Assembly (NCBI GenBank): GCA_020062545.1 | Contig: JAGUWD010000039.1 | Span: 1 to 32,649, forward strand | Origin: Thermodesulfovibrionales bacterium | GTDB lineage: Bacteria > Nitrospirota > Thermodesulfovibrionia > Thermodesulfovibrionales > Dissulfurispiraceae | Length of the DNA stretch: 32,649 nt | Direction of reading: 5' to 3' | In this document: positions 8,447 through 30,829 of the stretch, one piece after another | Numbering within the stretch: the stretch's first letter is position 1 | Layout: each line of letters opens with the position of its first letter | Notes under the pieces: generated by a model | Databases searched by the model: none | Seen by the model: the letters and a program-made list of their open reading frames with translations, nothing else | Told to the model about the DNA's origin: nothing | Position numbers and translations under genes: made by a program

Positions 8447-9475
8447 CTATTGCAAATCGTCAAATTGCAGCAATGAATCTATTTTAATATTTCTCTTTGT
8501 CCTGCGTCCAATTACCTTCGAAATATCCTCCGGGCTTATACCTGTTCCTGGTCTTTTTAATGTCAGCATGTCTTCTGTTATTACATCGCCCCTTTTAATA
8601 TCAACTTTAGCAACAATGCTCTTTCTTGCCCATTCTTTGCTTTTAAGCTCCTTTTCGGAAGGTGTTTTGATACCTGTTCCAAGCGCCTTGTCTATTTTTC
8701 TAATGCTGTTCACCATCTCTATGAGATCACGCTCATCGCATGAGACAGGGCAATCCTGAGAACCAGGTGCATTCTTGCTCACAGCAATATGTTTTTCGAT
8801 AACAGAAGCGCCAACGGCGACAGCAGCAAGAACCATATCATTGCCGATAGTATGGTCAGAATATCCAACAGGACATCCGAATTCTTTCTGCAGCGTGTTA
8901 ATAACCTTCAAGTTTATATCTTCAGGAACAGGAGGATAGCAAGTTATGCAATGAAGAAGAATAAGATTGGTATTACCTTCGTCGAGAAAAATATTAACCG
9001 CATCCCTTACATCATCCATGTCATACATGCCTGTTGAGAGAATTACAGGCTTTTTCTTCTTTGCTATTTTTCTCAAATACGGCGTATTAGACACCTCGCC
9101 AGAGCCGATTTTATATGCTAAGGGATTAAGAGAGCTGTAAAAATCAAGGCTCTCGTCATCGTGGGCCGTGGCAAGAAACATTATGCCCTTTTGCTCGCAA
9201 TATTCCTTAAGATATTTAAAGGCATCATAGGGCAGTTCTTTTGGTTTAAGCCTCTCTATCCAGTCAGGTGCAACCGATGAAACAAGATTTTCTGTCCTGA
9301 ATATCTGAAATTTTACGGCATCAGCCCTTGCTATAACCGCCATATCGACAAGGTGTTTTGCAATTTCAATATTTCCGAAGTGGTTTACGCCAGCCTCTGC
9401 TATAACAAAGACAGGGTTGTCTGAACTGACATGTCTGCTGCCAATCTGAACAACATTGCTAAGTTTTTTTCTCAT
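8447..9475 (-). CDS. neuB: NeuB-family nonulosonic acid synthase
   Basis: Condenses phosphoenolpyruvate with a 6-carbon N-acyl amino sugar (ManNAc for sialic acid, 2,4-diacetamido-trideoxymannose for legionaminic acid) to give a 9-carbon nonulosonate. The 342-aa length is standard. The TIM barrel carries EAGVNHFG (27-34), KFQ (55-57), GSGE near 124-127, LHC around H175, DHT (207-209) and EKHI (227-230). A C-terminal SAF (antifreeze-like) domain from about 283 includes the conserved Arg308 in KRPGTGISP, which reaches the active site of the partner subunit. The sequence alone does not settle sialic versus legionaminic substrate. It overlaps the upstream methyltransferase by 17 nt. Confidence 0.94.
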   Translation of the reverse strand: MRKKLSNVVQIGSRHVSSDNPVFVIAEAGVNHFGNIEIAKHLVDMAVIARADAVKFQIFRTENLVSSVAPDWIERLKPKELPYDAFKYLKEYCEQKGIMFLATAHDDESLDFYSSLNPLAYKIGSGEVSNTPYLRKIAKKKKPVILSTGMYDMDDVRDAVNIFLDEGNTNLILLHCITCYPPVPEDINLKVINTLQKEFGCPVGYSDHTIGNDMVLAAVAVGASVIEKHIAVSKNAPGSQDCPVSCDERDLIEMVNSIRKIDKALGTGIKTPSEKELKSKEWARKSIVAKVDIKRGDVITEDMLTLKRPGTGISPEDISKVIGRRTKRNIKIDSLLQFDDLQ

Positions 9476-10796
9476 AATTCTTCAGTATCCTTTTCATTTT
9501 AAAAAGCTCTTCGTAATATAACCCACGACGCATTACAAATTCTTTTATATTAAAAACTCCTTTATTTGCAAGCCCTTCAAGATACGGAAATTCATACAGT
9601 TTAGGCAACAACTCAAAAGCCTGTTTAAGAAAAAATCTCGCATATACCATATCTCCTGTATTAAAACATATTATGGCAAGCAAGCCGTATATATTACCTT
9701 TCTGAAAGTTTAAATCTTCTTCATTAAAATCAGATTGGAGGCACTCCATCAAGAGTTCCTTTGCTCTGGCAAAATCACCCTTCTCGTATGCCCTAAAAGC
9801 TTCAATAAATTTTATAGGATTATATTCAGAAATAGTCTCTTTAACAACTTTCATTGCAGATTCAAAAGAAAGAATATTTCTATTATAATTTTCCATAGCA
9901 GAATAAACTTTATCATATCTCAAAAAAAAGTCAGCAATAGAATTAAAATCATCCCTGAATTCTATTTCTCTAAACTTACCTTTCCTCGCCACTACCCGCA
10001 TGTTCATGCAATATCCGCCGTATTCGAAATGCAAAAATTCAAAACCACCTATATTCAGCAGGTTCTTAATACTGTTGGGGCTGAAGGTATATAAATGGGC
10101 ATTGGACAAGAAACCAAATAATGGTTTGTGGGGCTTAAAAATATCCGGCACTTCGATAAGCACTATGCCGTCATCTTTAAGTAAATCCCTTATCTTCAGT
10201 AGCACATTTTTAGGATGCGAAAAATGCTCAAGGGCATCGCAGATTGTTACCATGTCAAACTTTATGTCTGTTTTAAGGTCTTCAAATGGAACTCTGAATA
10301 TTGTATCTACTCCAAACAGTTCATTTGTATAATCTGCAAACTGAGATAGCTCAACTCCATAAGCATTACAACCCCTTTCTTTTAAATAGGCAGGTAGAGC
10401 ACCGAAAGACGAGCCTATATCGAGAGTATTGATTCCTTTTTTAAGGTAGCCCAGTCTTTTTAAAAAGTCATATCTGACAACAGCGTTATAAATCTCAAGA
10501 CCTAAATGTACATTGGTAAATGGCAGATTATCAATTTTTGTCTCATCCTTTGCTGTATATATTTCTCTGTATTGGCTTTCGTAAAACTTAATAGTCTCTT
10601 CATCAGTCATTCTGGGATTTATATAAACAAGGCCACACTGTTTGCAGCATACATTTCGGTAATTAACAGGAATGCCGTCAGAAAAAAGGATGCGCCCTTC
10701 CTTTTTCCAGTTATACTTTTCACACAGCCACAGCTTATCCAAAAGCACACCATATTCGGCTGAGCCGCATATTTCGCAGACAACATCTTCCATCAC
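9459..10796 (-). CDS. zinc-binding class I SAM methyltransferase with TPR-like tail
   Basis: A 445-residue protein with three parts. A zinc-ribbon-like head has CEIC at 7-10 and CKQC at 51-54. A class I SAM-binding core follows, with motif I LDIGSSFG (125-132) and the acidic VTICDALEHFSHP block typical of Methyltransf_23-type sugar C-methyltransferases. The C-terminal helical region (about 345-445) contains DFARAKELLMECL and a following repeat that resemble TPRs. The head plus core resemble C-methyltransferases of deoxysugar pathways, but the family's usual third domain seems replaced by the TPR-like tail. The start may be GTG at 10796 or the adjacent ATG at 10793; AGGAG lies 7 or 10 nt upstream. 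The neuA stop is directly adjacent. Confidence 0.78.
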   Translation of the reverse strand: MMEDVVCEICGSAEYGVLLDKLWLCEKYNWKKEGRILFSDGIPVNYRNVCCKQCGLVYINPRMTDEETIKFYESQYREIYTAKDETKIDNLPFTNVHLGLEIYNAVVRYDFLKRLGYLKKGINTLDIGSSFGALPAYLKERGCNAYGVELSQFADYTNELFGVDTIFRVPFEDLKTDIKFDMVTICDALEHFSHPKNVLLKIRDLLKDDGIVLIEVPDIFKPHKPLFGFLSNAHLYTFSPNSIKNLLNIGGFEFLHFEYGGYCMNMRVVARKGKFREIEFRDDFNSIADFFLRYDKVYSAMENYNRNILSFESAMKVVKETISEYNPIKFIEAFRAYEKGDFARAKELLMECLQSDFNEEDLNFQKGNIYGLLAIICFNTGDMVYARFFLKQAFELLPKLYEFPYLEGLANKGVFNIKEFVMRRGLYYEELFKMKRILKNYEKKT

Positions 10797-11492
10797 CTAT
10801 GTTCTCCTCGACATCAGCCATTCAGCCATTTCCATGTCAAACATATCGTCAATATCGAATCCTTCGATATTATCGACCTCTATAGGAAACGATTTATCTC
10901 CGTAAAGCGAATCCTTTTCAAAGATAGTAGCCCTTTTAGATGCATAAAGGTTCCCGAAAAAATAAACGGGGGGCGCTGACTGGCTGTTGGGACACTTCTT
11001 TTTCTCTTCAGGAAACATAAAAGAGATTGTGCCATCCTCGTTTATCTTTCTTGCATTGTAAGGATGGTGTTTAAACGGCGCCCTTGTAACGGTTGTTACT
11101 GAATCAAAATCTCCATTCTCAGAAAAAGCCTTTATAGTTTTTTCTATATTATCAACCGTAATGAATGGATAGGTCGGCTGTATAGTAAGAATTATATCCG
11201 CATAAAAACCGGCCTTATCCAATTCAGTGATTACATGCTCTATTACAGGCAGAGTCGGAGTATTATCCTGCGCCAGTTCAACAGGTCTCTTAATTACCTC
11301 TACACCCTCTTTTTTAGCAACCTCTGCTATAGCCTCATCCTCTGTTGAAACAACAAGCCTGTCAATAAAAGAACTCTTTTTAGCTGTTCTCAGGCAATGG
11401 CATATAAGGGGAATGCCTCCTAACGGGTATAGATTTTTATTCGGTATCCTTTTTGACCCTCCCCTTGCAGGAACTATTCCCAAGATTTTCAT
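10797..11492 (-). CDS. neuA: CMP-nonulosonate cytidylyltransferase (NeuA/LegF type)
   Basis: Activates the nonulosonic acid with CTP to give the CMP-sugar donor used by glycosyltransferases. The 231-aa protein is the single-domain bacterial form. The family motif PARGGSKRIPNKN is at 8-20, followed by VVSTEDEAIAEVA, the LTIQPTYPF strand and the C-terminal IEGFDIDDMFD, whose Asp residues bind the metal. The ATG overlaps the dehydrogenase stop (ATGA) and GAGGAG lies upstream. Whether the substrate is Neu5Ac, legionaminate or another nonulosonate cannot be told from sequence alone; it should match the NeuB product. Confidence 0.93.
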   Translation of the reverse strand: MKILGIVPARGGSKRIPNKNLYPLGGIPLICHCLRTAKKSSFIDRLVVSTEDEAIAEVAKKEGVEVIKRPVELAQDNTPTLPVIEHVITELDKAGFYADIILTIQPTYPFITVDNIEKTIKAFSENGDFDSVTTVTRAPFKHHPYNARKINEDGTISFMFPEEKKKCPNSQSAPPVYFFGNLYASKRATIFEKDSLYGDKSFPIEVDNIEGFDIDDMFDMEMAEWLMSRRT

Positions 11493-12457
11493 TGCAATCT
11501 CCTCATATATTCAATAGTCTGTTCAATTACATGCCGCTGGGTCAGATACCATGCGTCTTCTGTGGAGCCTGCAATATGTGGCGTAATTATAAGATTATCA
11601 TGCGTCTGGGCATACTTCACCAATGGATGGGATAACACCTTATTTGAAAAGCCGGGCTCAAACTCGCCGTCAAGCACATCCAGCGCAGCGCCTTTGATGA
11701 TCCCTTTTTCCAGCGCCTCTATCAGTGCTTGGGAATCAACCACCTCTCCCCTTGCTGTGTTTATAAAATAAGAACCTTTCTTAAATTTACAAAATACTGC
11801 TTTGTTGAAAAAATGCCTGTTCTCCCCATTCATTGGTATATGAACAGTAATAATATCGACCTGAGAAACCAGTTGTTCAATACTTTCAATTCGTTTATAA
11901 GACCATTCAGCATTATGTGTAATAAAAGGGTCATAATAAGAAACCTTCATGCCGAATGCAGTTGCATATCTTGCTACCATTTTGCCAAGCCGCCCGAGAC
12001 CCACGATGCCGAGGGACATCCTCGAAAGCATTGCCTGCCCTCCAAATTCCCATCTGCTCCACTCGCCGTTTAAAACAGATTTCATTGCAGGAACCATATT
12101 CCTCGTGATGTTAATTATCAATCCCATTGTCAGTTCTGCGGTGGGAGTAATTGTATCGAGAAATTCTTTTTCATCCTTTAATGAGATAACATTAATGCCC
12201 CTCGATGCTGCACGCTCAACATCAATATGAGGCACGCCGGTTGTATTGGTTGCAACCACCTTCAGATTTGGAGACACGGAAAAAATATCCTCTCCGAAGA
12301 AATAGCCTAATGGTGCAAATATCACGGATATATCCTTCAGGATGTCTGGAGTTATCATTGATGGGTTATTCAGCCTTATGACCTCGAAATTATCGTATAA
12401 AAGATCAAGATTCTCTTTTTTGTAATTAAGTATTTCAAAATAAAGGGCTTTTTTCAT
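11489..12457 (-). CDS. D-isomer-specific 2-hydroxyacid dehydrogenase
   Basis: An NAD(P)-dependent oxidoreductase of the SerA/D-lactate dehydrogenase superfamily, 322 aa. The nucleotide-binding motif GIVGLGRLG is at 150-158. The catalytic triad is present: Arg236 in NTARGEVVD, Glu265 in LDGEFE and His294 in TPHIAGST. The N-terminal catalytic lobe is less conserved, so the substrate cannot be named. It overlaps asnB and neuA by 4 nt each, so it is an integral member of the operon. It might make a hydroxyacyl group that decorates the glycan, or reduce a 2-keto acid derived from a sugar; both are inference. Confidence 0.85.
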   Translation of the reverse strand: MKKALYFEILNYKKENLDLLYDNFEVIRLNNPSMITPDILKDISVIFAPLGYFFGEDIFSVSPNLKVVATNTTGVPHIDVERAASRGINVISLKDEKEFLDTITPTAELTMGLIINITRNMVPAMKSVLNGEWSRWEFGGQAMLSRMSLGIVGLGRLGKMVARYATAFGMKVSYYDPFITHNAEWSYKRIESIEQLVSQVDIITVHIPMNGENRHFFNKAVFCKFKKGSYFINTARGEVVDSQALIEALEKGIIKGAALDVLDGEFEPGFSNKVLSHPLVKYAQTHDNLIITPHIAGSTEDAWYLTQRHVIEQTIEYMRRLQ

Positions 12458-14316
12458 TTGAAGTTTAATTTATACCATCTTGCCAATATTATCAATCCCC
12501 AGATGTGCTGTTTAAAGCCTTTGTCCTTTCCTTCTCGAAATAAAAACTCGATGAATTCATTATTGAAAAAACCTGTCTCATGATTAAAGCTTAGCAATTC
12601 CTTCATAAGTATCGATGCATAATAATCGGATATCCACTCCATAAATGGTGAACTGAACCCCTTTTTCCTGCGATGCACTATTTCCTGAGGCAGATATCGA
12701 ATCGCAATGTTCTTCAGCAAGTTTTTATTCTCCCTGCCGACCCTGATCTCAGGTGAAATACTCAACAAAAGCTCCACAAGCTCATGGTCTAAAAAAGGGG
12801 CCCTTAATTCCAGAGAATGTGCCATGCTCATTTTATCCAGTTTCATGAGAATAACCTCTGGTATCCATATCTTAAGATCGAGATAAGAAAACCAGTGCGA
12901 TGGATGCTTCAGCCCGGACTCTACAAATATATCTCTGTAACGGGATATAAAATTTAACGAATTATATTGAGCAATGTCCTTAAAAACATCTTTATTTAAC
13001 AAAAGCTCTTTTTGTCTATTAGTGAAATTTTCTCCTATAGTTCTAAAAATAGGTTCGTTATTTACAGTTCTTTTGAAAAATTCCCAGTCCCTCGAAATGG
13101 TAAAGTTTGACAACAAATAACCAAGGATAAACTCCTTCCGGGCATCGTTAAGTCCTGTTTGAAGATCATAATATTTTAGAAAATCGAAGTACCTGTCGTA
13201 GCCGAAGAATATCTCATCGCTTCCCTCGCCTGTAAGGCATACTTTTATATCATGCTCCCGCACCAGTTTCGAAAGTATGTAGGTCGGCACGCATGCAGGG
13301 TCATTTATCGGCTCATCCAGATGATAAACTACAGAGTCTATATTGTTAATAAAATCATCTTTTGACATGATAGTTTCATGATAATTTGCATGTATATGGT
13401 CTGCGACCCTCTTTGCAAAGTAGAGTTCGTCGTATTGCTTGTGTTCGGCATAACCAACAGAAAAAGTATTAATTTGTCTCGTTGTTAAATTGCTATAAAG
13501 TGCACTTATCATAGAAGAGTCGACTCCGCCCGAAAGATAACTCCCGACCTCGACATCGCTCACAAGTCTATAGTGCACAGACCGTTTAAGATATTCTTCA
13601 ATGCTCTCGTGAACTTCGTCCGCATCATTTAAAAGAGGGGGGAGGTTCTTTATCGGGTCATAATATTCTGATACGGCTATGTTTCCTCTGCTAAATACAA
13701 GCATATACCCTGCTTGAAGTTTATGGATGTTTTCAAACATGGTGTTTGGAGGAAGAGGAGCCAAAAAACTCAAATATTGCAAAAGCGCCTCTTTGTTAAT
13801 ATCCAACATTTCATCTATAAAAAATTTGATGGCCTTTATTTCTGATGCAAAAATAAAACTATCCTTATAAAAGCTATAATAAAGCGGCTTTTTCCCGAAT
13901 CTGTCCCTGCATAAAATGAGTCTTTTATTTAATTTATCCCATATTCCAAAGGCAAACATCCCCCTCAATTTATGTATAAAATCAATCCCATAATGCTTAT
14001 ACAGATAAATTATAACTTCGGTATCGGTATTGCTTTTAAACCTATATCCAATATTCTCGAGTTCTTTTTTTAATTCAAGATAGTTGTATATCTCACCGTT
14101 AAAGGTTATCCATATATTCCCCGCAGAATCGGACATGGGCTGTTTTCCATGCTTTGAAATGTCTATTATCGAGAGCCTATTATGGCCGAGGACTATAAAA
14201 TTATCCGAATATATACCACTGTCATCAGGTCCCCTGTGGCGAATTGATTTAAGGGCAGAATCGAAATTTTCTTTATTTATCTCTTTCTCTGAAAATACAC
14301 CCAATATTCCGCACAA
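12454..14316 (-). CDS. asnB: AsnB-type glutamine amidotransferase
   Basis: Glutamine-hydrolysing, ATP-dependent amidotransferase of the asparagine synthetase B family, 620 aa, full length. The N-terminal class II glutaminase domain begins with the catalytic Cys2 (MCGILGVFS) and carries RHRGPDDSG and NGEIYNY. The synthetase domain has the PP-loop SGGVDSS at 262-268. The start codon is TTG at 14316: Cys2 must follow the initiator, no ATG precedes it, and GGAGG lies 9 nt upstream. In polysaccharide loci such paralogues often amidate a sugar carboxylate rather than aspartate. Given the hydroxyacid dehydrogenase, neuA and neuB just downstream, amidation of a sugar acid or acyl group is plausible but unproven. 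Confidence 0.9.
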   Translation of the reverse strand: MCGILGVFSEKEINKENFDSALKSIRHRGPDDSGIYSDNFIVLGHNRLSIIDISKHGKQPMSDSAGNIWITFNGEIYNYLELKKELENIGYRFKSNTDTEVIIYLYKHYGIDFIHKLRGMFAFGIWDKLNKRLILCRDRFGKKPLYYSFYKDSFIFASEIKAIKFFIDEMLDINKEALLQYLSFLAPLPPNTMFENIHKLQAGYMLVFSRGNIAVSEYYDPIKNLPPLLNDADEVHESIEEYLKRSVHYRLVSDVEVGSYLSGGVDSSMISALYSNLTTRQINTFSVGYAEHKQYDELYFAKRVADHIHANYHETIMSKDDFINNIDSVVYHLDEPINDPACVPTYILSKLVREHDIKVCLTGEGSDEIFFGYDRYFDFLKYYDLQTGLNDARKEFILGYLLSNFTISRDWEFFKRTVNNEPIFRTIGENFTNRQKELLLNKDVFKDIAQYNSLNFISRYRDIFVESGLKHPSHWFSYLDLKIWIPEVILMKLDKMSMAHSLELRAPFLDHELVELLLSISPEIRVGRENKNLLKNIAIRYLPQEIVHRRKKGFSSPFMEWISDYYASILMKELLSFNHETGFFNNEFIEFLFREGKDKGFKQHIWGLIILARWYKLNFK

Positions 14317-14881: not shown

Positions 14882-15919
14882 TTACTTTATCACCTCGTCA
14901 ACCAAGGATTTAACATCAGCATGTTGTTCTCTTAAAACATTGTTTGTGAGCCTTTTGCCTGCATGCTCTTTGTATAGTTTGATAATTTCCCCTTCTGTTT
15001 GCGCCAGAAACATCAGTTCGTTGTCTATTAAAAATTTGTCATAATGCGTTACAAAGGATCTTGTAGAAATTACAGGCGTACCCCAGTAACACGCTTCTAT
15101 ATTAATAGTACCTCCGCCACCTATGAATATATCCACAAATGGAAGTATCTTGGAAAGATCCATTTTTTCCTCTACTGTAATTGCATTGGGGAATTCTTCC
15201 CTCAAATGACCTGTCTCGTATCTGGGTATAATAATCAGGTTTGCATCTATATTCTTTAATGCATCGTACACAAATTTCTTTTTGTTCAAGACATAGGATG
15301 CTTTGTATTCTTCTTCTCTAAAAAGTATCGTTTTTTTATTTTTATCTATCGAAAGCTTTTCGAAAAAACTGCCGTCCGCGACTTGATATTGAAGATAAAT
15401 AATCGGATCAAGAAAATTATAAGTATAAACATTATTGACGCCGACAAACGGGGTAAAATATTCTCTTGGCACGACAAAGGGATGAAATATTCTGTTGGAC
15501 AAAGGAAGTGTCAACTTCGCAATAGGTGTCAGATTGCCATTAATTCCCCTGCTCGGAATATCAAAAAAACTCACGATCTCTATTCCATTACCGAATGCAA
15601 CCCTGCAGCCGTCTACCGAGCCTAAATTCACCAGCTTTTTTATCCTGAAGTTTTGTATAAATTCGTTTAAAGCGATCTGTCTGTTCAATGCACTGGATAA
15701 CTTTGATTTAAGTTTCTCTCCGCCGTATTCTCCCAGAGAATAATATTGCAAGCCTCTCAATTCAAGAAGCCTTATTGGTTCTGTATAGTCTTCTGATTTG
15801 CGTGTAGTTATTAAGCAGTCTATGCCCCTGCCCTGTATCTCCTTTATTATCGGCTCAAAGAAAGTAACCTGTTTCGGAGTGCCGAGATCAAACCAAATTG
15901 TTTCGTCTTTGTATTTCAT
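14882..15919 (-). CDS. DUF354-family GT-B-like protein
   Basis: A 345-residue protein resembling the DUF354 family, a GT-B-like group seen in archaeal and bacterial polysaccharide loci with no settled activity. The N-terminus, IWFDLGTPKQVTFFEPII, has the family's short nucleotide-sugar-enzyme-like opening. The C-terminal lobe has DIFIGGGGTINIEACYWGTPVIS, a glycine-rich loop plus conserved Glu, comparable to the UDP site of UDP-GlcNAc 2-epimerases. No membrane segment is evident. It shares ATGA with the upstream radical SAM gene. Transferase or epimerase activity on a nucleotide sugar is the likely role. Confidence 0.7.
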   Translation of the reverse strand: MKYKDETIWFDLGTPKQVTFFEPIIKEIQGRGIDCLITTRKSEDYTEPIRLLELRGLQYYSLGEYGGEKLKSKLSSALNRQIALNEFIQNFRIKKLVNLGSVDGCRVAFGNGIEIVSFFDIPSRGINGNLTPIAKLTLPLSNRIFHPFVVPREYFTPFVGVNNVYTYNFLDPIIYLQYQVADGSFFEKLSIDKNKKTILFREEEYKASYVLNKKKFVYDALKNIDANLIIIPRYETGHLREEFPNAITVEEKMDLSKILPFVDIFIGGGGTINIEACYWGTPVISTRSFVTHYDKFLIDNELMFLAQTEGEIIKLYKEHAGKRLTNNVLREQHADVKSLVDEVIK

Positions 15920-16923
15920 TGCTTATCCTTTCCAACTGGTATTAATCCTGCCTGTCTTCCCCATGGAAACTCAATTTTAAGGGCGCAGAGCATCCCGCAA
16001 GGCTGACACTTTCTCTCTTTTACATACTCAATTGCTTTCACCGCTTTTTCTGACGATAGCAGCATGTCCAGATCTCCGCCAAATTCTTTTAAATTGCCCA
16101 TAAACAGTTCCGGCAAAAGCTCATTGCAGGGGTAAACATTCCCGTAAGGGTCTATAACAATAGACATCCTTCCCATATAGCATTCAAAGAATGGAATGTT
16201 TCTTTCATATACGCTTTTTGCCCAGAGCCAGTTTGCAAGCCGTCTTTCAGTAAGCCAACCAACCTTGTTAAGCAGGTTTTCTATTTCTGCGATTTCTTCC
16301 TTTGTAAAGTTGAATTCTTTATCCGAATTATTGAAATAAAAGGAAGAAATTCGTGGATAGCCTATATAATAACCAACGCCCATTTCCTTTGCGAAGCCGA
16401 CAAACCACTCGATATCTCTATAGATTTCCTTGAATGTGGTCATTATAAATCGTATGGGAATATTTAATTGCTTGAGAAGCTTAGCGGTCTCTACCGCCTT
16501 ATAAAAGCCGTCTTTGACAAACCTGATGGATTTATAATTTTCAGGACGGCCATCGAGAGAAATATCTATCTTGAAATTTAAAGGCCTTATATGTCGAATG
16601 CATTCTTTTACAACCTCAAAGTGCCTTTTGGGATACCACCCGCTAATATTCGTATGTATAATCGCATCTGGTTTATATCGGGCTATTAATTTGACAACAT
16701 CCACATATCTGGATGACAACTGCGATTCCCCGCCTGTAAGTTCAAAGTGTGATGCCTTGTGTAATGCCTTGCTTTGGAGTGCCTTCTCAAATAAGAACAA
16801 GTCTATTTCATTTTTTGTAACTTCTTCTTTTTCCCTCTGCCATACATTACAATTTCTGCATTTGCCAGGACAATACAAAGAGACCATATACTGAACATCA
16901 TCTATTGTATACTCTTCCTTCAT
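15916..16923 (-). CDS. radical SAM enzyme with SPASM-like C-terminus
   Basis: A radical S-adenosylmethionine protein of 335 aa. The cluster-binding CxxxCxxC lies at Cys18, Cys22 and Cys25 (YCPGKCRNCNVW). FELTGGES is the glycine-rich SAM-contact strand, and ISLDG follows. The C-terminal part has FFECYMGR, YGNVYPCNE and CQPCGMLC, a Cys pattern like a SPASM/twitch auxiliary Fe-S domain. Such enzymes modify peptides or carry out sugar dehydrogenation or epimerisation. I use the ATG at 16923: it forms ATGA with the upstream stop and has GGAGAGG upstream; an in-frame ATG at 16941 is less likely. The substrate is unknown; nearby genes suggest a sugar. Confidence 0.85.
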   Translation of the reverse strand: MKEEYTIDDVQYMVSLYCPGKCRNCNVWQREKEEVTKNEIDLFLFEKALQSKALHKASHFELTGGESQLSSRYVDVVKLIARYKPDAIIHTNISGWYPKRHFEVVKECIRHIRPLNFKIDISLDGRPENYKSIRFVKDGFYKAVETAKLLKQLNIPIRFIMTTFKEIYRDIEWFVGFAKEMGVGYYIGYPRISSFYFNNSDKEFNFTKEEIAEIENLLNKVGWLTERRLANWLWAKSVYERNIPFFECYMGRMSIVIDPYGNVYPCNELLPELFMGNLKEFGGDLDMLLSSEKAVKAIEYVKERKCQPCGMLCALKIEFPWGRQAGLIPVGKDKQ

Positions 16924-18101
16924 GCAACCTCTCCAACCCATGGCAGGATAATTTTATAATCTTTTAAATCCGCATTTCTTATTTTATTGATCATTGCTTC
17001 AGCATTCTCCCTCGCCGCGCATATGATAAACAAAATTTTTTGCTCTCTCACGGTGTTCACATAATCAAAGCCATTGATAAAAAATCCGTTTACCCTCTTC
17101 CCTATCCTCTCAGCAGCATCATCCACAACCGCCTGGTCTGCCAGCTTGATAGAATCTGCACCGATACTGTTTGCAAACGCAGCATAAAACCATACAAAAG
17201 CATTCTTGGATCCATAAAACACCAGCTTCCTTCCTTCATTTAAATGTTGTTTTACAAGCTGGCAGGTATGGCTAATAGAATCCCAGTACTTTGATATCAT
17301 CATCTCTATGCTGTCTGCCGTCACAAGACGCAAATAGTTTGATGTTCCTTTTTTATTCTTGCTGGCAACTAACATCAAGGGAGTATCGATATTATCCCAA
17401 ATAGCTGCCGGATGCATTCCAACCTCATCTATAAGTTTAACTAATGAGAAACTTACAAAATAATTGACATGATCGGGGATAAACACTTCAACTCCTTCGG
17501 AAAGGTCATTTTTGATATTTGGCACCTCTATAAAAATAGCCCCGTAAGGATCAAGCACTTTCTTTATAGTTCCTATAAATCTTTTGGGATATTTGATATG
17601 TTCAAGAACATTCCTCAATATAACAAGATCGAATTTATTCAAAAAAAGGTCCTCTGAAAAAAAGGCCTTAACGGTTGGAATACCCACGAAATCGAGCCCG
17701 GATGGCTCCACACCAATAACATTGATGTGATTACACTTTAATTTCAGGTGGTAAAGAAAATCTCCCCTGTTCGAACCTATTTCGAGAACATTTTTAATCC
17801 TTGAGAGGTCAAGGTTATCGGTTAAAAACTTCAATGCATAACTCAACGAGTTCTCGGAGACAGGAAAAGGCCTTATGCTATTGTCCATCATACTGTAGAA
17901 GTTATAAACATTCTGCATAACCGCATCGTATTCCTCAACGGTATATGCTGATTTCTGAAATATAAAACTGCAATTATTACATAAAGATGCAACCAGATTA
18001 ATGGATGGAACATTTTCATCATGCCAGAATATGCTATAAGGCAAATTATTCCTCTTATATATATCTGCAACATCATGGTGTTCACAGACCGGACATTTCA
18101 T
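16920..18101 (-). CDS. zinc-binding SAM-dependent C-methyltransferase (NovU/TylC3-like)
   Basis: A 393-residue protein with the three-part layout of deoxysugar C-methyltransferases. A zinc-binding head has CPVC at 3-6 and CNNC at 41-44. The class I SAM core has motif I LEIGSNRGD (about 106-114) and LVILRNVLEHIKYPKRF. The C-terminal domain (about 280-393) begins RKLVFYGSKNAFVWFY and resembles Methyltransf_14. The family methylates a keto-sugar carbon next to the carbonyl. This suggests a branched-chain sugar in the glycan. It precedes the radical SAM gene with a 4-nt overlap. It keeps the family's own C-terminal domain, unlike the methyltransferase at 9459-10796. Confidence 0.82.
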   Translation of the reverse strand: MKCPVCEHHDVADIYKRNNLPYSIFWHDENVPSINLVASLCNNCSFIFQKSAYTVEEYDAVMQNVYNFYSMMDNSIRPFPVSENSLSYALKFLTDNLDLSRIKNVLEIGSNRGDFLYHLKLKCNHINVIGVEPSGLDFVGIPTVKAFFSEDLFLNKFDLVILRNVLEHIKYPKRFIGTIKKVLDPYGAIFIEVPNIKNDLSEGVEVFIPDHVNYFVSFSLVKLIDEVGMHPAAIWDNIDTPLMLVASKNKKGTSNYLRLVTADSIEMMISKYWDSISHTCQLVKQHLNEGRKLVFYGSKNAFVWFYAAFANSIGADSIKLADQAVVDDAAERIGKRVNGFFINGFDYVNTVREQKILFIICAARENAEAMINKIRNADLKDYKIILPWVGEVA

Positions 18102-22169: not shown

Positions 22170-23438
22170 TTAAGACAGAATACGACAACCCATCTCTTTT
22201 GAAAGATGCAAAGCCCGCTGTTCAATTACCTTCTGTGGAATTTTATCAGGCATATTCGATGCCTCTGTGCCGGGTCTATCTTCATACCTATTAATTGTAA
22301 CTTCAAAAAAATCAATTTCTGGGATAAATCGTTCTGTTTCAGCAAAATCTTTCTCGGTTTCTCCGGGGAAACCTACTAAAAAGCTCGTACGAATGGCTAT
22401 TGATGGGGCTCGCTCTCTTAGCTCTTTCAATACAGATTTAACATCATCGGCGATATAGTTACGCCTCATCCTTTTCAGGATATGATCGGAACCAGATTGA
22501 ATCGGCACAAATAATTCTTTGATTTTATCCTGATTTTTTACTATTAAAGGAACTATTTTTTGGCGCTGCTCAACTAACCACTGAGGACAACAATCAATTA
22601 TTACCAACTGGTAATCGCCTTCTATTGCAAAAATCTGCTCCAGCAACTCCGAAAAATTCGTGCCTATATCAAGCCCATAACATCCTGTATCTTCTGCAAT
22701 AAGCTGAAATATCTTATATTTTTTTCCAATACCGTACTTAAGATCCTCAATAATCTTTTCAACAGGCCTACTGCGCAGTCTTCCTGTTGCAAATTTCGTA
22801 GCGCAAAATGCACAATTGCTCATACATCCTTCAGCAATCCTTATATTGAAATAAGGCACCACTTTTTTTTGCGGTGCATTAGAAAAAACTTTTTTTACAT
22901 ATTGAATAGTCCTGTTTATGTATACTGATGCAGAAAGGAACATGCTATTCATACTGAATCTATGAAATAATGCTTTATAGAATTGATACTGTCTGCAAAA
23001 ACTTCGTGCTATCAAATAATTAGTAATATCTTTATTGTCTGCTATACTGTCAGGCGCTCCGACTTCGGAAATTGGCTTAACAGCAGTAATCGTTGAATCT
23101 AACAGTTCAAGATTACCGGTAGGAACAATAATAAATTTTCCAATCTTCCCAATTTCATCCGGATTAATTTTAGGTAGGCATCCTGTTATAACAATCTGTG
23201 AGTTCTTCTTCTTTTTCTTCTCGGCAATCGAAATTGCTTTAAGCGAATTGATCTCATTCAACCTAACAACACCGCATGTTGCGATAACAATTAAATCAGC
23301 CCTTTTAAGATGTTTTGTTAATTTCCAATTATTTTCTTCGAGATATTCCTGAATATGAATAGCATCTATTGCGCGCCTTATGCATCCGGCGTTAAATATA
23401 TAAAACTTTTTTATGCTCCTATCTTTATATAAGCTCAT
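22170..23438 (-). CDS. MiaB/RimO-like radical SAM protein lacking TRAM
   Basis: A 422-residue methylthiotransferase-like protein. The N-terminal UPF0004 half keeps three cysteines (Cys19, Cys55 in IATCGV, Cys87 in TGCLP) for an auxiliary 4Fe-4S cluster. The radical SAM core has EGCMSNCAFC with Cys205, Cys209 and Cys212, and ends in the family's RYEDRPGTEAS. Two features set it apart: the gap between the third and fourth cluster cysteines is longer than usual (basic, aromatic residues about 140-190), and the chain stops about 30 residues after RPGTEAS, so the TRAM RNA-binding domain of MiaB and MtaB is absent. A tRNA role is therefore less likely, and a sugar or peptide target is possible. It overlaps wbqC by 14 nt. 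Confidence 0.85.
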   Translation of the reverse strand: MSLYKDRSIKKFYIFNAGCIRRAIDAIHIQEYLEENNWKLTKHLKRADLIVIATCGVVRLNEINSLKAISIAEKKKKKNSQIVITGCLPKINPDEIGKIGKFIIVPTGNLELLDSTITAVKPISEVGAPDSIADNKDITNYLIARSFCRQYQFYKALFHRFSMNSMFLSASVYINRTIQYVKKVFSNAPQKKVVPYFNIRIAEGCMSNCAFCATKFATGRLRSRPVEKIIEDLKYGIGKKYKIFQLIAEDTGCYGLDIGTNFSELLEQIFAIEGDYQLVIIDCCPQWLVEQRQKIVPLIVKNQDKIKELFVPIQSGSDHILKRMRRNYIADDVKSVLKELRERAPSIAIRTSFLVGFPGETEKDFAETERFIPEIDFFEVTINRYEDRPGTEASNMPDKIPQKVIEQRALHLSKEMGCRILS

Positions 23439-25271: not shown

Positions 25272-27293
25272 CTATCTTCTCTTATTAATTGAATGTGCCG
25301 TGTTTTTTTGTAGGCATCGGTTAGCGAGGCTTCCATAAAACTGTTCCAGTTGCTCTGCTGATTTCTGGCAGCTTAATATCTGTTCTAAAATTCCCTGTTC
25401 TTTCCTGCCTACTGCTTCCCTGTAATCTTTATCCTTTATAAAGTTACATGCAATGCTTATATACTCTTTGACAGAATCAGACCACATTTCTCCCCCCGTC
25501 ATAGTTTGTTTACGTTTTCGTATGATATCCTGTTCGTCAAATTCTAAAACACTTATCATAGAAACTACTGGTTTACCCTTTGCCCTGAGTTCAAGTCCAG
25601 CAAATCCCATTCCTACAGGAAATGAATTTAATCCCATATCTATAACGTGACCATATATATGGGCATTAACATGTCCTTCAAAATACACTCTATCAATACA
25701 TCCTGCACTCTCAAAATGTTTTTTAATCGGCTCATTATCCCCTGCGCCGCATATCAAGAAAATAGTTTCTGGATTCAACTTTAATATTTCTGCTATAGCA
25801 TAAAGACATTCATGATTGTATAGTTTTGCTAATCTGCCTATAAATCCTAAAATAATTTTATTTTTAGGATATCTGTTTCTAATTTTTTTTATAGCTTCTT
25901 TTGAAACAGGCGGATCTAAAAATTCCATAGCTACAGGAGCGCTGAAGACAAAAAATTCAATTCCTTTATACAAATCTTTTTGTACAGATTCACGATTTCC
26001 ATAATGCATCATCCTATAATCAAGATTATTTACATTCCAGTAAGGGTCGCCGTGTGACCAATAAATCTGAATAGGCGCTACCCTTGAGGATACCAAAAAA
26101 TTGCCTATCTGGGTTCCTGTTGTAACAAATATATCTATTTTATCTTCAATTATCTGCTTTCTTAATGCCATTGCCTTTTCAAAGTGAGAATAATAAATAT
26201 CTTTGAAATTACCCAACTGTCCTGCACTTATACATTTGAATCCCATGGATTCTATTATGTTTATAACTTTTTCAGTATCTCCGATCTTCTCAATATAATC
26301 ATAGCCATACACATAAAACTCGATATCGGTATTTTTGTTTAAATAATGTCCGCTCAGCAGAGACAGTAAAACACCCACAGGAGATGAAAGAGCTAACTGC
26401 TGGTATGCGTATCCCACTCTTATCTTTTTATCTCCTTTGGGCTTTCTATTGCATGGCAATATGTTGTTTGCTTTACAATACTCGACAAAAAAATCACTCA
26501 CGGGTTTTTCTATCTCTTCATCAAGCCTTTTCCATGCCTCAACATTTAATTCGAGATTCCCATAATAAAAACGGATAAAAAAGCCAATATATAAAACAAG
26601 TTCAATGTTTTTTGCTTTTATGGATTCATAAAAAAGAGTCTTCAGCGGCTCATAAAGCCTTGCATAGCAAGCAGGGGCATCAAACTCTGAAAATATGCGA
26701 TGAAGAAACAGCAGATTGTTCTTTTGGACATTAATTGTTTTTTTCATAAACAAATCGGGTGAAAAAATCCCGGACTCTATATAAATGTCCACAATATCAT
26801 CCGGCGAAACATTTAGAACTTTCAATATTTCAGCAAATTCTTTTACTCTGAAATCTATGTCAGCATATCGTGTTATGAAGTCTTTAAGACCTTTATCTCT
26901 ACGTTGGTTCAAAATGTCTATCAGTAAAACTAAAATTAGTATCGCTTCTTTATTAATATTATCAGTCTTTTCATAATGTTCATCCAGCAGTTTATTCTTA
27001 ATATAAAACATACCTTTATGGGGAGCTAATTTGAACTTTCTTGAATTAAATAACGGGTATAGTGCAAAAAGATTCGTATGAAACTTTAATCTGCTTATGA
27101 AAACCAAAAAAATCTTTTCCCTTAATAATTCCACTATGTCTATCGAAGGATTATCATCGTTGCTCATCTTGAGAAGTTCATCTATCAATTCAAGCAAGGA
27201 GTTTTCGTCTTCGGCCTTTTGGAGAGATTCACGAATTTCCTTTAAAAGAATCTCAAGGTCATCTTTATAAACAGCAGCGCTATCCATTTCCAT
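25272..27293 (-). CDS. large GT-B glycosyltransferase with helical N-terminus (OGT/SPINDLY-like)
   Basis: A 673-residue protein. The N-terminal half (to about 285) is helical, without a clear TPR consensus. From KIRVGYAYQQLALSSP onward it resembles a GT-B transferase: IDIFVTTGTQIGNFLVSSRVAPIQIYWSHGDPY, then IILGFIGRLAKLYN, LICGAGDNEPIKKHFESAG and the donor-site segment GHVIDMGLNSFPVGMGFAGLELRAKGKPVVSM. The arrangement (helical domain plus GT-B with the phrase PIQIYWSHGDPY) recalls GT41 (OGT/SPINDLY) proteins that glycosylate Ser/Thr of proteins, but it is not a certain member. A flagellin Ser/Thr transferase role is possible. I use the ATG at 27293 (TGATG with neuC), not the TTG at 27296. Confidence 0.72.
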   Translation of the reverse strand: MEMDSAAVYKDDLEILLKEIRESLQKAEDENSLLELIDELLKMSNDDNPSIDIVELLREKIFLVFISRLKFHTNLFALYPLFNSRKFKLAPHKGMFYIKNKLLDEHYEKTDNINKEAILILVLLIDILNQRRDKGLKDFITRYADIDFRVKEFAEILKVLNVSPDDIVDIYIESGIFSPDLFMKKTINVQKNNLLFLHRIFSEFDAPACYARLYEPLKTLFYESIKAKNIELVLYIGFFIRFYYGNLELNVEAWKRLDEEIEKPVSDFFVEYCKANNILPCNRKPKGDKKIRVGYAYQQLALSSPVGVLLSLLSGHYLNKNTDIEFYVYGYDYIEKIGDTEKVINIIESMGFKCISAGQLGNFKDIYYSHFEKAMALRKQIIEDKIDIFVTTGTQIGNFLVSSRVAPIQIYWSHGDPYWNVNNLDYRMMHYGNRESVQKDLYKGIEFFVFSAPVAMEFLDPPVSKEAIKKIRNRYPKNKIILGFIGRLAKLYNHECLYAIAEILKLNPETIFLICGAGDNEPIKKHFESAGCIDRVYFEGHVNAHIYGHVIDMGLNSFPVGMGFAGLELRAKGKPVVSMISVLEFDEQDIIRKRKQTMTGGEMWSDSVKEYISIACNFIKDKDYREAVGRKEQGILEQILSCQKSAEQLEQFYGSLANRCLQKNTAHSINKRR

Positions 27294-28444
27294 CAATACA
27301 TCAATCTCTTCTGAACGCTTATCTTGCGCGTGCTTAAAATCTCTGCAATCTTCTCCCCTGCATGGCCATTACCATATAAATGGTTGCTCGGGTATTTTCC
27401 ATGGGCAATCTGTTTTTTTATCGCATTTCTTATCTCATCCCTGCTGTAATTCACATCTATTACATTTTCTCCCCTTTCCCTGTGGTTCTGCCTTGTGCCT
27501 ATGTTTACCACCGGCACGCCGAGATATGCGGATTCCCTTATTCCGCTGCTCGTGTTACCAACCAGAACAGCCGAGTTGTTTATCAGCTTGGCGTAATCCT
27601 CAAAGGCAAAGTTCTTGAAGAAGTGTATGTGCTTAGGCTGGTATTTCTCCCTGAACATTCTTATGCCCTTTGATATCTCGTCTGTTCCTGCATCCATATT
27701 CGGCCAGAGCCATAATGTCGGCATGTTTATATCATTGATCGCATGAAGTGTTTCCTGCACCTGCGTACTTGCAGACTCGTATTCTGTCGTAACAGGATGC
27801 TGGGATACGACTATATAATTATTCTTCGTTACAGGAACTAAAGCGCCCACTCCGGCATATTTTTCAAAAACATCAAAATCGAGGTCGAGATTTATATCCC
27901 TTATCAGGTCGATTGTCGGGGAGCCTACTACATAGACATTTTCTGGATCCTCTCCCATCTTTATTACTCTCTCTGCGCTCTTTTGTGTTGCGACAAAATG
28001 GATATGCGAGAGTTTTGTAATCGCATGCCTGATGGATTCGTCTATAGAGCCCGAAAGCTCTCCGCCTTCGAGATGTGCGACAGGTATATTCATGTAGCTT
28101 GCTGCCACTGCAACAGCAAGGGCTTCAAATCTGTCGGCAATTGCCATTACAATATCAGGACGGAGGTTTTCAAAAACGGTAGACAACTCAACAACAGCAA
28201 GGCCTGTGGATTTCGCCATTGTTATGGGCTTACCGCCCTCGACAAGAAAGTGAACCATCTCGCTTATCTCAAAGCCGTCGGCCTCGATGATATTTATTGG
28301 ATTGCCGAATTTATGGAGAATAACAGCGCCGCCCACAACAAGCTGCAATTCGCAGTTTGAGCGGTTTTTTATTTCCTTCATTATGGATTTCATCTTCGCA
28401 TAATTGCCGCGCACTGTTAATACAATACATATTTTTCTTTTCAT
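27293..28444 (-). CDS. neuC: NeuC/LegG-type UDP-GlcNAc (or diacetamido-sugar) 2-epimerase, hydrolysing
   Basis: Removes UDP while inverting C2: UDP-GlcNAc to ManNAc (NeuC), or UDP-diNAc-bacillosamine to the LegI substrate (LegG). It is 383 aa. The signature runs through PDIVMAIADRFEALAVA, AHLEGGELSGSIDESIRHA, FVATQKSAERV, VVSQHPVTTEY and the C-terminal GNTSSGIRESAYLGVPVVNIGTRQ. Hydrolysing epimerases of this clade carry the SIDESIRHAITKLSH stretch. I start at the ATG at 28444 (MKRKICIV) rather than 28477, which lies inside the upstream gene; GGAG stands about 14 nt upstream. Substrate choice between the two classes is not decided by these motifs. Confidence 0.92.
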   Translation of the reverse strand: MKRKICIVLTVRGNYAKMKSIMKEIKNRSNCELQLVVGGAVILHKFGNPINIIEADGFEISEMVHFLVEGGKPITMAKSTGLAVVELSTVFENLRPDIVMAIADRFEALAVAVAASYMNIPVAHLEGGELSGSIDESIRHAITKLSHIHFVATQKSAERVIKMGEDPENVYVVGSPTIDLIRDINLDLDFDVFEKYAGVGALVPVTKNNYIVVSQHPVTTEYESASTQVQETLHAINDINMPTLWLWPNMDAGTDEISKGIRMFREKYQPKHIHFFKNFAFEDYAKLINNSAVLVGNTSSGIRESAYLGVPVVNIGTRQNHRERGENVIDVNYSRDEIRNAIKKQIAHGKYPSNHLYGNGHAGEKIAEILSTRKISVQKRLMY

Positions 28445-28467
28445 ATCGCTTCTGCCTTCTCCTCTGT

Positions 28468-29631
28468 TTATTGCCATTTTGCCCTGCCCGGCAGGATTAT
28501 GTCCTGCCTTATATTCTTTTTATTCTCCATCACTATCTCCAGCATCTCTGTAATAACCTTTTCTGTAAGATAATTGGGCTGAAGCCCGAGGCTCAAGAGA
28601 TTGGTATTCTTTGCATTATAATAATGCTCCTCTGCTTCTTTTCTTGGGTTTGGATAATTTTTCGTGGTTACATCAATGCCAAGATTTTTGGCAGCAGCCT
28701 TAACCTTTTCGGAAAGCTCATTGACACTGAATATCTCTGTGAACTGGTTCATAACCCTGAACTCGCCTTTATTAGCAGGATTTTGGACTGCAAGCCTTAC
28801 GCATTGAAGGGTATCTATAATATTTAAAAATCCCCTCTTCTGACCGCCCTTGCCATAAACAGTCAGAGGAATTCCTACCACTGCCTGTGTAATAAATCGA
28901 TTCAGAACCGTACCCCAGAATTCATCGTAATGGAAATGGGGCATAAGGCGGTTTTCTTTGTCCATTCTGCTCTCGGCTGTCTCAATTCCATAAACAGGCC
29001 CCTGATTTAAATCGGTAACCCTCAACCCCCACATCCTAACGCCAAGATAAAGCATGTCGCTGTCCTGAACCTTACTCAGATGATAAAATGAGCCGGGAAG
29101 CTTCGGGAATGGCAGCCTGTCCTTTCTGCCGCTTTGTTCTATCTCCATAAACCCTTCTTCAATATCAATATTCGGTGTCCCGTATTCTCCCATTGTGCCA
29201 AGCTTTATGAGATGAATATCAGGATTTATTGTCTTAATAGCCCACATAACGGCCAGTGTAGCTCCGAGGTTATTCTGTATGGTTTCCCATGAGGTATTGT
29301 GATTGAGCATTGAATAAGGCGCAGACGGTATCTCTCCGTAATGTATTATTGTATCGGGCTCAAATTCCTTTACTACCTTAAAAAGAAAATCCTGCTCTCC
29401 TATGTCGCCGACATAAACCTTGATATCATTCCCTGTCAGCCCCTTCCATATATTTGCCCTTTCTTGGAGGTTAGGGCAATCAATCAATGGCGTTATGCCG
29501 AGTTTATTGAATATCCATCTCTTGAAATAATTATCCAATACCGCAACACTATAGCCAAGATTTGAGAGATTCATTGCAGTAGGCCATCCGAGATAACCAT
29601 CACCGCCGAGTATAAGCACTTTGTCTTTCAT
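28468..29631 (-). CDS. SQD1-like NAD-dependent sugar enzyme (sulfoquinovose synthase family)
   Basis: A 387-residue extended short-chain dehydrogenase. By memory it matches the plant SQD1/bacterial SqdB family along its whole length: GGDGYLG (9-15) Rossmann loop, KGLTGNDIKVYVGDI, SAPYSM, KLGTMGEYGTPNIDIEEG, SFYHLSK, TDLNQGPVYG and LTVYGKGGQKRGF. Thr146, Tyr183 and Lys187 take the places of the SQD1 catalytic Thr/Tyr/Lys. SQD1 makes UDP-sulfoquinovose from UDP-glucose and sulfite. Other members of this family may only dehydrate or epimerise. It sits between the 4,6-dehydratase and NeuC and shares the sigma-28 transcript. Whether it uses sulfite cannot be seen from sequence. Confidence 0.85.
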   Translation of the reverse strand: MKDKVLILGGDGYLGWPTAMNLSNLGYSVAVLDNYFKRWIFNKLGITPLIDCPNLQERANIWKGLTGNDIKVYVGDIGEQDFLFKVVKEFEPDTIIHYGEIPSAPYSMLNHNTSWETIQNNLGATLAVMWAIKTINPDIHLIKLGTMGEYGTPNIDIEEGFMEIEQSGRKDRLPFPKLPGSFYHLSKVQDSDMLYLGVRMWGLRVTDLNQGPVYGIETAESRMDKENRLMPHFHYDEFWGTVLNRFITQAVVGIPLTVYGKGGQKRGFLNIIDTLQCVRLAVQNPANKGEFRVMNQFTEIFSVNELSEKVKAAAKNLGIDVTTKNYPNPRKEAEEHYYNAKNTNLLSLGLQPNYLTEKVITEMLEIVMENKKNIRQDIILPGRAKWQ

Positions 29632-29633
29632 AT

Positions 29634-30677
29634 TTAACAGACTTCCTCCATTAATCTATGTTTGAGGATATATGATTTTAGATCTTCCCTGCTCATAAAC
29701 GGCTCGTCAGAGGATATGTACGGATTTTTAAGGGTCTTTGAAACAATGCCTTCATAGGTATAATCGATTTTGTATAAATCACGGAATGCAGGAAATATCA
29801 CGAACAACTTCTCAAGCTCTATAGCCCTGCCCATCTCTTCCAGAGACATAAGTTCTTCGTAAAGTTTTTCGCCTGGCTTTTTTCCTATCTCCACAATCTT
29901 TATGTTTTCTGGCTTATGCCCGTACATCGGCGATAGGATCTCTATCATAACATCTGCAAGGTCAGCAATCCTGATTACAGGCATTTTTGTTACAAGAACT
30001 TCGCCTCCCTTTGCTATTAATGCTGACTCAATTACAAGTCCAACTGCCTCGTCGATGGTCATTACAAACCTCGTCATTCTGCTGTCTGTCAATGTAACAG
30101 GACCGCCGTTTTTAATCTGCTTTTTAAATATGGGGACAACCGAGCCCCTTGAACCCAGCACATTTCCAAACCGCGTGCTCGAAAAAATGGTCTTTTTGTC
30201 ATAGCGTATCGTATTCGCAGCAGTAATAAGTTTTTCAGCCATCAATTTAGAGGTTCCCATGACATTCGTTGGATTCACAGCCTTGTCACTGCTGGTAAAA
30301 ATAACCTTTCCTACATCATTCAGTAGTGCCGCTTCTATGATATTCTGGGTCCCGTTTATATTTGTCTGCACAACATCAAAGGGATTGAATTCAGACAGAA
30401 TTACATGCTTGAATGCTGCGGTGTGAAAGATTACATCCACGCCCCTTGTAATCTTAATCAGCTTATCCCTGTCCCGTATATCGCCAAGGAAAAACACAAC
30501 CCTTTGGTCTCCGCGATATTCATCTGTTAGATAAAAGAGTTCTGTCTCATTATTGTCAAAAACCCTTATTTCTTCCACATCAGACAGCAACAGTTGCTTA
30601 AGCAGTATCTTGCCGACAGTCCCTGCCCCGCCTGTAATCAGAACTCTTTTTATTTCATTATTAAAAATATCCTGCAT
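29634..30677 (-). CDS. nucleotide-sugar 4,6-dehydratase (LegB/PglF/WbpM-like, soluble)
   Basis: Converts an NDP-GlcNAc to its 4-keto-6-deoxy derivative, the first step to bacillosamine/legionaminic-type sugars. It has the VLITGGAGTVG Rossmann loop near its N-terminus, SDKAVNPTNVMGTSK (Ser-Asp-Lys triad, with Met where Tyr occurs in PseB), and TRFGNVLGSRGSVVPIF. The Met-type active site is that of the PglF/WbpM branch, which keeps the C5 configuration, so a bacillosamine/legionaminate route is favoured over pseudaminate. It lacks the membrane domain of WbpM, as LegB does. I use the ATG at 30677: it leaves the usual ~11 residues before the Rossmann strand and has GGAG upstream; the in-frame ATG at 30695 has no SD. 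First gene after the sigma-28 promoter. Confidence 0.88.
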   Translation of the reverse strand: MQDIFNNEIKRVLITGGAGTVGKILLKQLLLSDVEEIRVFDNNETELFYLTDEYRGDQRVVFFLGDIRDRDKLIKITRGVDVIFHTAAFKHVILSEFNPFDVVQTNINGTQNIIEAALLNDVGKVIFTSSDKAVNPTNVMGTSKLMAEKLITAANTIRYDKKTIFSSTRFGNVLGSRGSVVPIFKKQIKNGGPVTLTDSRMTRFVMTIDEAVGLVIESALIAKGGEVLVTKMPVIRIADLADVMIEILSPMYGHKPENIKIVEIGKKPGEKLYEELMSLEEMGRAIELEKLFVIFPAFRDLYKIDYTYEGIVSKTLKNPYISSDEPFMSREDLKSYILKHRLMEEVC

Positions 30678-30679
30678 CT

Positions 30680-30829
30680 CTAATAAAGACTCCATTTAAA
30701 CATCGGATTTAACTTAGCAATAAGCATACCATTGGGCATAAAAACATAAGCCTTTGAAATACAAAACATATTCCTTATAGGGCGCGCTTCCTGAGGAGCA
30801 TTTTTGACATTCCCAAAAGTGTCTGTCAT
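30680..30829 (-). CDS. possible 49-aa leader ORF upstream of the dehydratase
   Basis: An ATG-initiated frame of 49 codons begins about 20 nt after the sigma-28 -10 box and ends with TAG at 30680-30682, 2 nt before the ATG at 30677 of the dehydratase. The predicted peptide starts MTDTFGNVKNAPQEARPIRN, and its C-terminal half is rich in Met and aromatics and ends KWSLY. There is no SD (at most AGAG), so translation would be near-leaderless. I do not recognise it. It could be a small protein or a leader coupling translation to the dehydratase, or chance: the length is only mildly surprising. Confidence 0.35.
   Translation of the reverse strand: MTDTFGNVKNAPQEARPIRNMFCISKAYVFMPNGMLIAKLNPMFKWSLY

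Follow-up and report, generated by a model that had tools for sequence, protein, structure and literature searches.

Sulfonation of the SQD1 type is known on glucose, in the sulfolipid and in one archaeal N-glycan. When sulfite is withheld, SQD1 and Agl3 yield UDP-Glc-5,6-ene, Agl3 then being a 5,6-dehydratase, and Agl3 is inactivated by the R101A exchange (PMC4388408). For UDP-GlcNAc, a 5,6-dehydratase is represented by Pen (structure 6BWC), whose product is UDP-GlcNAc-5,6-ene (PMC8987622). On flagellin of C. difficile, a taurine-containing peptidylamido-glycan has been described (PMC5207245).

In this study, we explored a stretch of 32,649 nucleotides from a Thermodesulfovibrionales bacterium (contig JAGUWD010000039.1), referred to as the window, in which an SQD1-like gene lies between a dehydratase gene and neuC, in a same-strand gene run ending at flagellin. 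The features discussed below are:

2831 to 4360, minus strand: flagellin (Flagellin_N/C), the probable acceptor and last gene of the same-strand run
8447 to 9475, minus strand: NeuB-type nonulosonate synthase of an SQD1-associated clade, by tree placement
9459 to 10796, minus strand: SAM methyltransferase adjoining neuB/neuA; class I methyltransferases also occur in other SQD1-neu clusters
10797 to 11492, minus strand: CMP-nonulosonate cytidylyltransferase of NeuA/PseF type, by profile match
11489 to 12457, minus strand: D-2-hydroxyacid dehydrogenase, recurring with neuB/neuC/neuA/SQD1 across other phyla
25272 to 27296, minus strand: glycosyltransferase-like protein after NeuC, 61-62% identity in both congeners
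27293 to 28477, minus strand: NeuC, hydrolysing UDP-GlcNAc 2-epimerase, with a 10-base overlap with the SQD1-like gene
28468 to 29631, minus strand: SQD1-like extended SDR, proposed to sulfonate C6 of a UDP-GlcNAc-derived sugar
29634 to 30695, minus strand: partner dehydratase (SSDK...NVMGTSK), nearest solved structure Pen, a UDP-GlcNAc 5,6-dehydratase

The gene at 28468-29631 encodes a genuine SQD1 homologue. Its minus-strand reading frame spans 387 amino acids from ATG through stop, and a phmmer search against the PDB returned Arabidopsis SQD1 entries as the only matches below 1e-10 (437.7 bits, E 3.5e-130), with a colinear alignment over residues 4-382 and 51.5% identity end to end, confirming the long, colinear match of the original prediction. 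The Thr/Tyr/Lys active-site pattern claimed there could likewise be located: the SQD1 triad T145/Y182/K186 and His183 of YH-x-x-K are all intact, the NAD motif GGDGYLG agrees with GxxGxxG, and TMGEYG and YHLSK agree with [ST]MG...Yx3K. The structural comparison with SQD1 that had been suggested gave the same picture, since the AlphaFold2 model (mean pLDDT 88.9) has SQD1 (1i2b/1qrr) as its top match with Z about 57, an rmsd of 1.6-1.7 over 382 residues and a TM of 0.95, and the runner-up families GalE and RmlB follow at Z about 33 (33.6 for GalE). A Tyr at the position resembling GalE Y299 is mostly conserved and is His in G002, one of two congeneric genomes compared below, which does not discriminate between GlcNAc and Glc. 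The cut-off of the UDP-sulfoquinovose synthase model NF041015 is missed (441.7 vs 575 bits).

The protein could be a plain UDP-sulfoquinovose synthase acting on UDP-glucose and sulfite, in which case sulfoquinovose would be a residue of its own in the flagellar glycan and the nonulosonate genes would be mere neighbours. The 51% identity, the SQD1 fold and the intact triad and His183 would agree with this, as would sulfite genes near relatives and the precedent of Agl3 in archaeal N-glycans (PMC4388408). However, Arg101 is lost, NF041015 is missed, and both the fixed GlcNAc-type dehydratase partner and the association with one NeuB clade would be left unexplained, so that we regard this reading as unlikely. 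The substrates of NeuC and NeuB are 2-acetamido sugars, so that UDP-sulfoquinovose could not enter their route; the dehydratase is also of UDP-GlcNAc type, which makes UDP-glucose the less likely UDP-sugar.

The replacement of Arg101 is not confined to the window enzyme. SQD1 reads GEQRSAPYSM at this site and the window enzyme GEIPSAPYSM, with Pro at the position of Arg101. A tree built from 110 SQD1 homologues places the window enzyme in a clade of 63 rows (support 99), of which QGPVY is the mark, Val being replaced by Pro after the QG motif in 63/63. Pro101 is found in all 63 members and in 29 further homologues, thus in 92 sampled proteins from two large uncharacterised SQD1 groups, and Arg101 is carried among the sampled homologues by SQD1, alphaproteobacterial SqdB-type enzymes and some Chloroflexi. 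Since we found no characterised Pro101 enzyme, annotation of these proteins as UDP-sulfoquinovose synthases is unsafe. The loci span Nitrospirota, Desulfobacterota, Alpha- and Gammaproteobacteria, Bacteroidota and others. In the plasmid collection, 22 SQD1 homologues lie on plasmids, mostly Arg101 SqdB-like among those read. A homologue on a Pseudonocardia autotrophica plasmid (L112, 11998-13146) has Arg101, carries TLGKYG in place of TMGEYG at the active-site loop and has a cysteine synthase family gene nearby. SQD1 homologues had no match in the phage collection and none on viral contigs.

The strongest single locus for a link to sulfite is L080 from Candidatus Falkowbacteria (Patescibacteria), a genome of 0.9 Mb, where the gene order on one strand is neuC-x-neuA-cysH-cysD-cysN-SQD1-neuB, with x encoding a 335-aa protein. 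Its cysH, cysD and cysN each score over at least one curated cut-off, its CysD is the sole one of that genome, and a survey of 342 Patescibacteria found CysD in 4. L080 is the only NeuB-clade cluster with a sulfite module. In four further loci (L057, L064, L072, L091), a cysH over the PAPS-reductase cut-off lies near a dehydratase-SQD1 pair. Overall, cys genes are located near 8 of 109 SQD1 homologues vs about 0.3 expected under the assumption of one cys locus per 4 Mb, a count in which four loci are Saprospiraceae and thus not independent, for which reason we rejected treating every cys neighbour as an independent case, and in which L075 and L097 are putative cases. A PAPS reductase likewise neighbours an Arg101-type homologue on a Pelagovum plasmid, and genes that supply sulfite thus accompany SQD1-family genes as a general pattern. 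No cys genes lie within the window; its genome contains dsrA and CysD was not found there, and sulfite could therefore come from dissimilatory sulfur metabolism.

From these relatives we infer that the window enzyme uses sulfite. Of the two branches of the original prediction, the sulfite-fixing one is thus favoured by comparative genomics, through genes for APS/PAPS reductase and sulfate adenylyltransferase beside relatives. The other branch, recruitment of the SQD1 fold for another NDP-sugar step, holds in so far as the substrate would be a UDP-GlcNAc-derived sugar, on which sulfite is probably still fixed. A sulfite-free step carried out with the adjacent dehydratase (5,6-dehydratase, 4- or 5-epimerase or 4-ketoreductase) would fit the exchange of Arg101 for Pro, further changes shared by the group, among them Val to Pro after QG in 63/63, and the 5,6-dehydratase activity of Agl3 without sulfite (PMC4388408), but it is hard to reconcile with L080, where genes for sulfate-to-sulfite conversion separate neuA from SQD1, and with cysH beside dehydratase-SQD1 pairs, and we consider it improbable. 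Loss of Arg101 was rejected as proof of a sulfite-free enzyme, because the L080 enzyme, whose cluster carries cysHDN, also has Pro101.

The dehydratase is a fixed companion of the window clade. It adjoins SQD1 in 42 of the 54 loci which belong to the 63-member clade and have enough flank, compared to 0 of 39 SQD1 homologues outside the clade (Fisher p 1e-15), and the partner dehydratases are 47-100% identical to the protein encoded at 29634-30695 of the window. Among solved structures, the window dehydratase scores highest against Pen (303 bits, next 234). The catalytic residues DK...M-x3-K are present in 44 of 45 SQD1-adjacent dehydratases, with one lacking a motif match; the Pen-type residues DK...Y-x3-K were not found in these proteins. 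The earlier label of this gene as LegB-like proved wrong and was rejected, since TIGR04180 gives 62.4 bits at a cut-off of 475; the enzyme is of Pen/PseB/PglF type instead. Without sulfite, UDP-Glc-5,6-ene is the analogous product of SQD1 and Agl3, which makes UDP-GlcNAc-5,6-ene a logical starting compound for an enzyme of the SQD1 type. A GalE-like SDR, which may epimerise the sulfonated sugar at C4, is often the third gene after the dehydratase-SQD1 pair (L008, L033, L061 and others).

On the nonulosonate side, the predicted position of the SQD1-like gene beside neuC was borne out, with NeuC scoring 412 bits against the TIGR03568 cut-off of 235.9. Its nearest PDB structure is human GNE with 257 bits, compared to 211 for the diNAcBac epimerase, which makes a 4-OH substrate plausible. 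The window NeuB is encoded about 20 kb from the SQD1-like gene and misses the cut-off of TIGR03569 (N-acetylneuraminate synthase NeuB; 363.8 vs 399.65). It belongs to a clade of 16 members with 99/98 support in the careful tree (again 99 with 72 rows), and all 16 rows stem from SQD1-containing genomes of several phyla. NeuB of this clade and SQD1 share one cluster, except in G050, whose two genes are on different short contigs. It should be noted that part of the tree sample was picked by SQD1 similarity, so that a fair test is confined to two whole-phylum samples in which NeuB was the sole query, namely 296 genomes from the phylum of the window and 297 from that of L094 (Deltaproteobacteria). 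There, SQD1 is found in 10 of 11 genomes with a clade NeuB vs 3 of 30 with other NeuBs (Fisher p 2.6e-6; p 2.2e-5 with the genus of the window counted once). In the one exception, G171, NeuB is cut at the contig end, and SQD1 lies directly downstream in the sister genome G117. The reverse rule, from SQD1 to a clade NeuB, fails, because SQD1 clusters L008, L033, L045 and L065 hold other NeuBs.

The gene set of the window recurs together with SQD1 in L032/L040 (Desulfatibacillum), L094, L108 (Rokuibacteriota), G138, G690, G720 and G831; the 2-hydroxyacid dehydrogenase was not seen in the L040 stretch, and L032 belongs to an isolate, Desulfatibacillum alkenivorans DSM 16219, that has the complete set. 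A D-2-hydroxyacid dehydrogenase with 51-57% identity to that of the window accompanies neuB/neuC/neuA of the SQD1-linked clade in L094, L032, L108, L172, L173, L189, L190 and L191. Two SQD1-like genes occur in L190 (G690, Desulfobacterota; 1104-2249 and 5467-6705), one paired with a dehydratase and one beside neuA, and an aldolase gene of DHDPS/NanA type adjoins neuA in an SQD1-neuB cluster (L203, G739; 5857-6774). The window genome itself holds three more NeuB genes of other clades (contigs C2 and C12; L221-L223 of G000) so that production of at least two nonulosonic acids is probable.

Across three congeneric genomes, dehydratase, SQD1, NeuC and NeuB are kept at 85-97% identity. The aminotransferase of the window is not conserved in the clusters of the congeners, with no such type in that of G002 and a 34% paralogue in that of G001, which weakens the case for reading the cluster mainly as a legionaminic pathway; against the LegC-type model TIGR04181 the score is 217 at a cut-off of 420. 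In the cluster of G002, a one-contig genome, neither NeuA nor the 2-hydroxyacid dehydrogenase was found. The glycan cluster of the window further encodes an AsnB-like amidotransferase and two radical SAM proteins, one of them MiaB-like (UPF0004), at 12454-14316, 15916-16941 and 22170-23438, and likely carries out unusual sugar tailoring. Between glycan genes and flagellin, at 6713-7891, lies a gene for a 392-aa protein that has no Pfam match and is 65-68% identical in both congeners.

We propose a model, which we hold to be marginally better than an even chance, in which a UDP-GlcNAc-derived sugar receives sulfite at C6 and is then converted by NeuC and NeuB to a nonulosonic acid sulfonated at C9, destined for the flagellar glycan. 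Substrate, order of steps, product, acceptor and every chemical step we infer as follows. Dehydration of UDP-GlcNAc by the Pen-like dehydratase would yield the 5,6-ene or an equivalent 4-keto compound, upon which the NAD-dependent SQD1-like enzyme would oxidise C4, add sulfite at C6 and reduce C4, leading to UDP-6-deoxy-6-sulfo-GlcNAc. NeuC would release 6-sulfo-ManNAc, which NeuB would condense with PEP to a 9-deoxy-9-sulfo nonulosonic acid, and NeuA would form the CMP sugar for transfer to flagellin. No dehydratase is adjacent in L080, L018 and L108, so the SQD1-like enzyme of these loci may need no partner to work on UDP-GlcNAc, in the way SQD1 works on UDP-Glc.

Several observations count against this sulfonated-nonulosonate model, namely the exchange of Arg101 for Pro, the missed NF041015 cut-off, a window without cys genes, a sulfite module in L080 alone among NeuB-clade clusters, the distance of 20 kb to NeuB, the G002 cluster without NeuA, and an aminotransferase and acyltransferases in the window that would suit a legionaminic-type route. 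In addition, many dehydratase-SQD1 pairs occur without a clade NeuB, so that sulfonated GlcNAc may also be used directly. In its strict form, UDP-6-sulfo-GlcNAc from the pair would be used by glycosyltransferases and the nonulosonic acid of the same glycan would itself be unsulfonated. That most pairs lie in such clusters, some with cysH, agrees with this; however, SQD1 is present in 10 of 11 clade-NeuB genomes and directly adjoins NeuC or NeuB in the window, L018/L171, L060, L080 and L094, which renders strict direct use rather improbable.

Taken over several phyla, C9-sulfonated nonulosonic (sialic-like) acids could be made via a sulfite-using SQD1-family enzyme with a 6-sulfo-N-acetylhexosamine precursor, a NeuB clade dedicated to this route and, for one reduced genome, a sulfate-to-sulfite module of its own, with flagellin as carrier in the window; this broader claim is tentative, and we place it just short of an even chance. 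If true, SQD1-type sulfonation would extend to UDP-GlcNAc and sialic-like acids, an added class of strongly acidic surface sugars, and a function would be assigned to the two Pro101 groups, now readily taken for UDP-sulfoquinovose synthases. A new source of organosulfonates would consequently be predicted in anoxic and subsurface habitats. We found no paper joining nonulosonic acids with sulfoquinovose or SQD1 in a search with subscription literature mostly outside its reach, which is weak evidence of absence, and a broader literature search returned no sulfonated nonulosonate.

In comparison to known systems, the window enzyme has in common with the UDP-sulfoquinovose synthases SQD1, SqdB and Agl3 the fold, the NAD motif, the Thr/Tyr/Lys triad, the active-site His and 51% identity to Arabidopsis SQD1, but differs in Pro for Arg101, in its dehydratase and NeuC/NeuB partners and in a probable 2-acetamido substrate. 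Pen and TunA, as UDP-GlcNAc 5,6-dehydratases, resemble the window dehydratase, with Pen as its closest solved structure and a fitting exo-glycal chemistry; in contrast to them, the window protein, whose function is predicted, has Met at the position of the catalytic Tyr, as in the PglF/WbpM type, and less than 50% identity. With the NeuC-NeuB-NeuA pathway to N-acetylneuraminic acid, the window shares homologues of all three enzymes, including a NeuC nearest to human GNE, whereas its NeuB forms an own clade that misses TIGR03569 and the SQD1 module is added. The flagellin glycan of C. difficile likewise carries a sulfonate (PMC5207245), so that a sulfonated flagellar glycan already has a precedent; its sulfonate derives from taurine and not from a C-sulfonated sugar, and a sugar C-sulfonated by an enzyme of the SQD1 type would be a novelty on flagellin.
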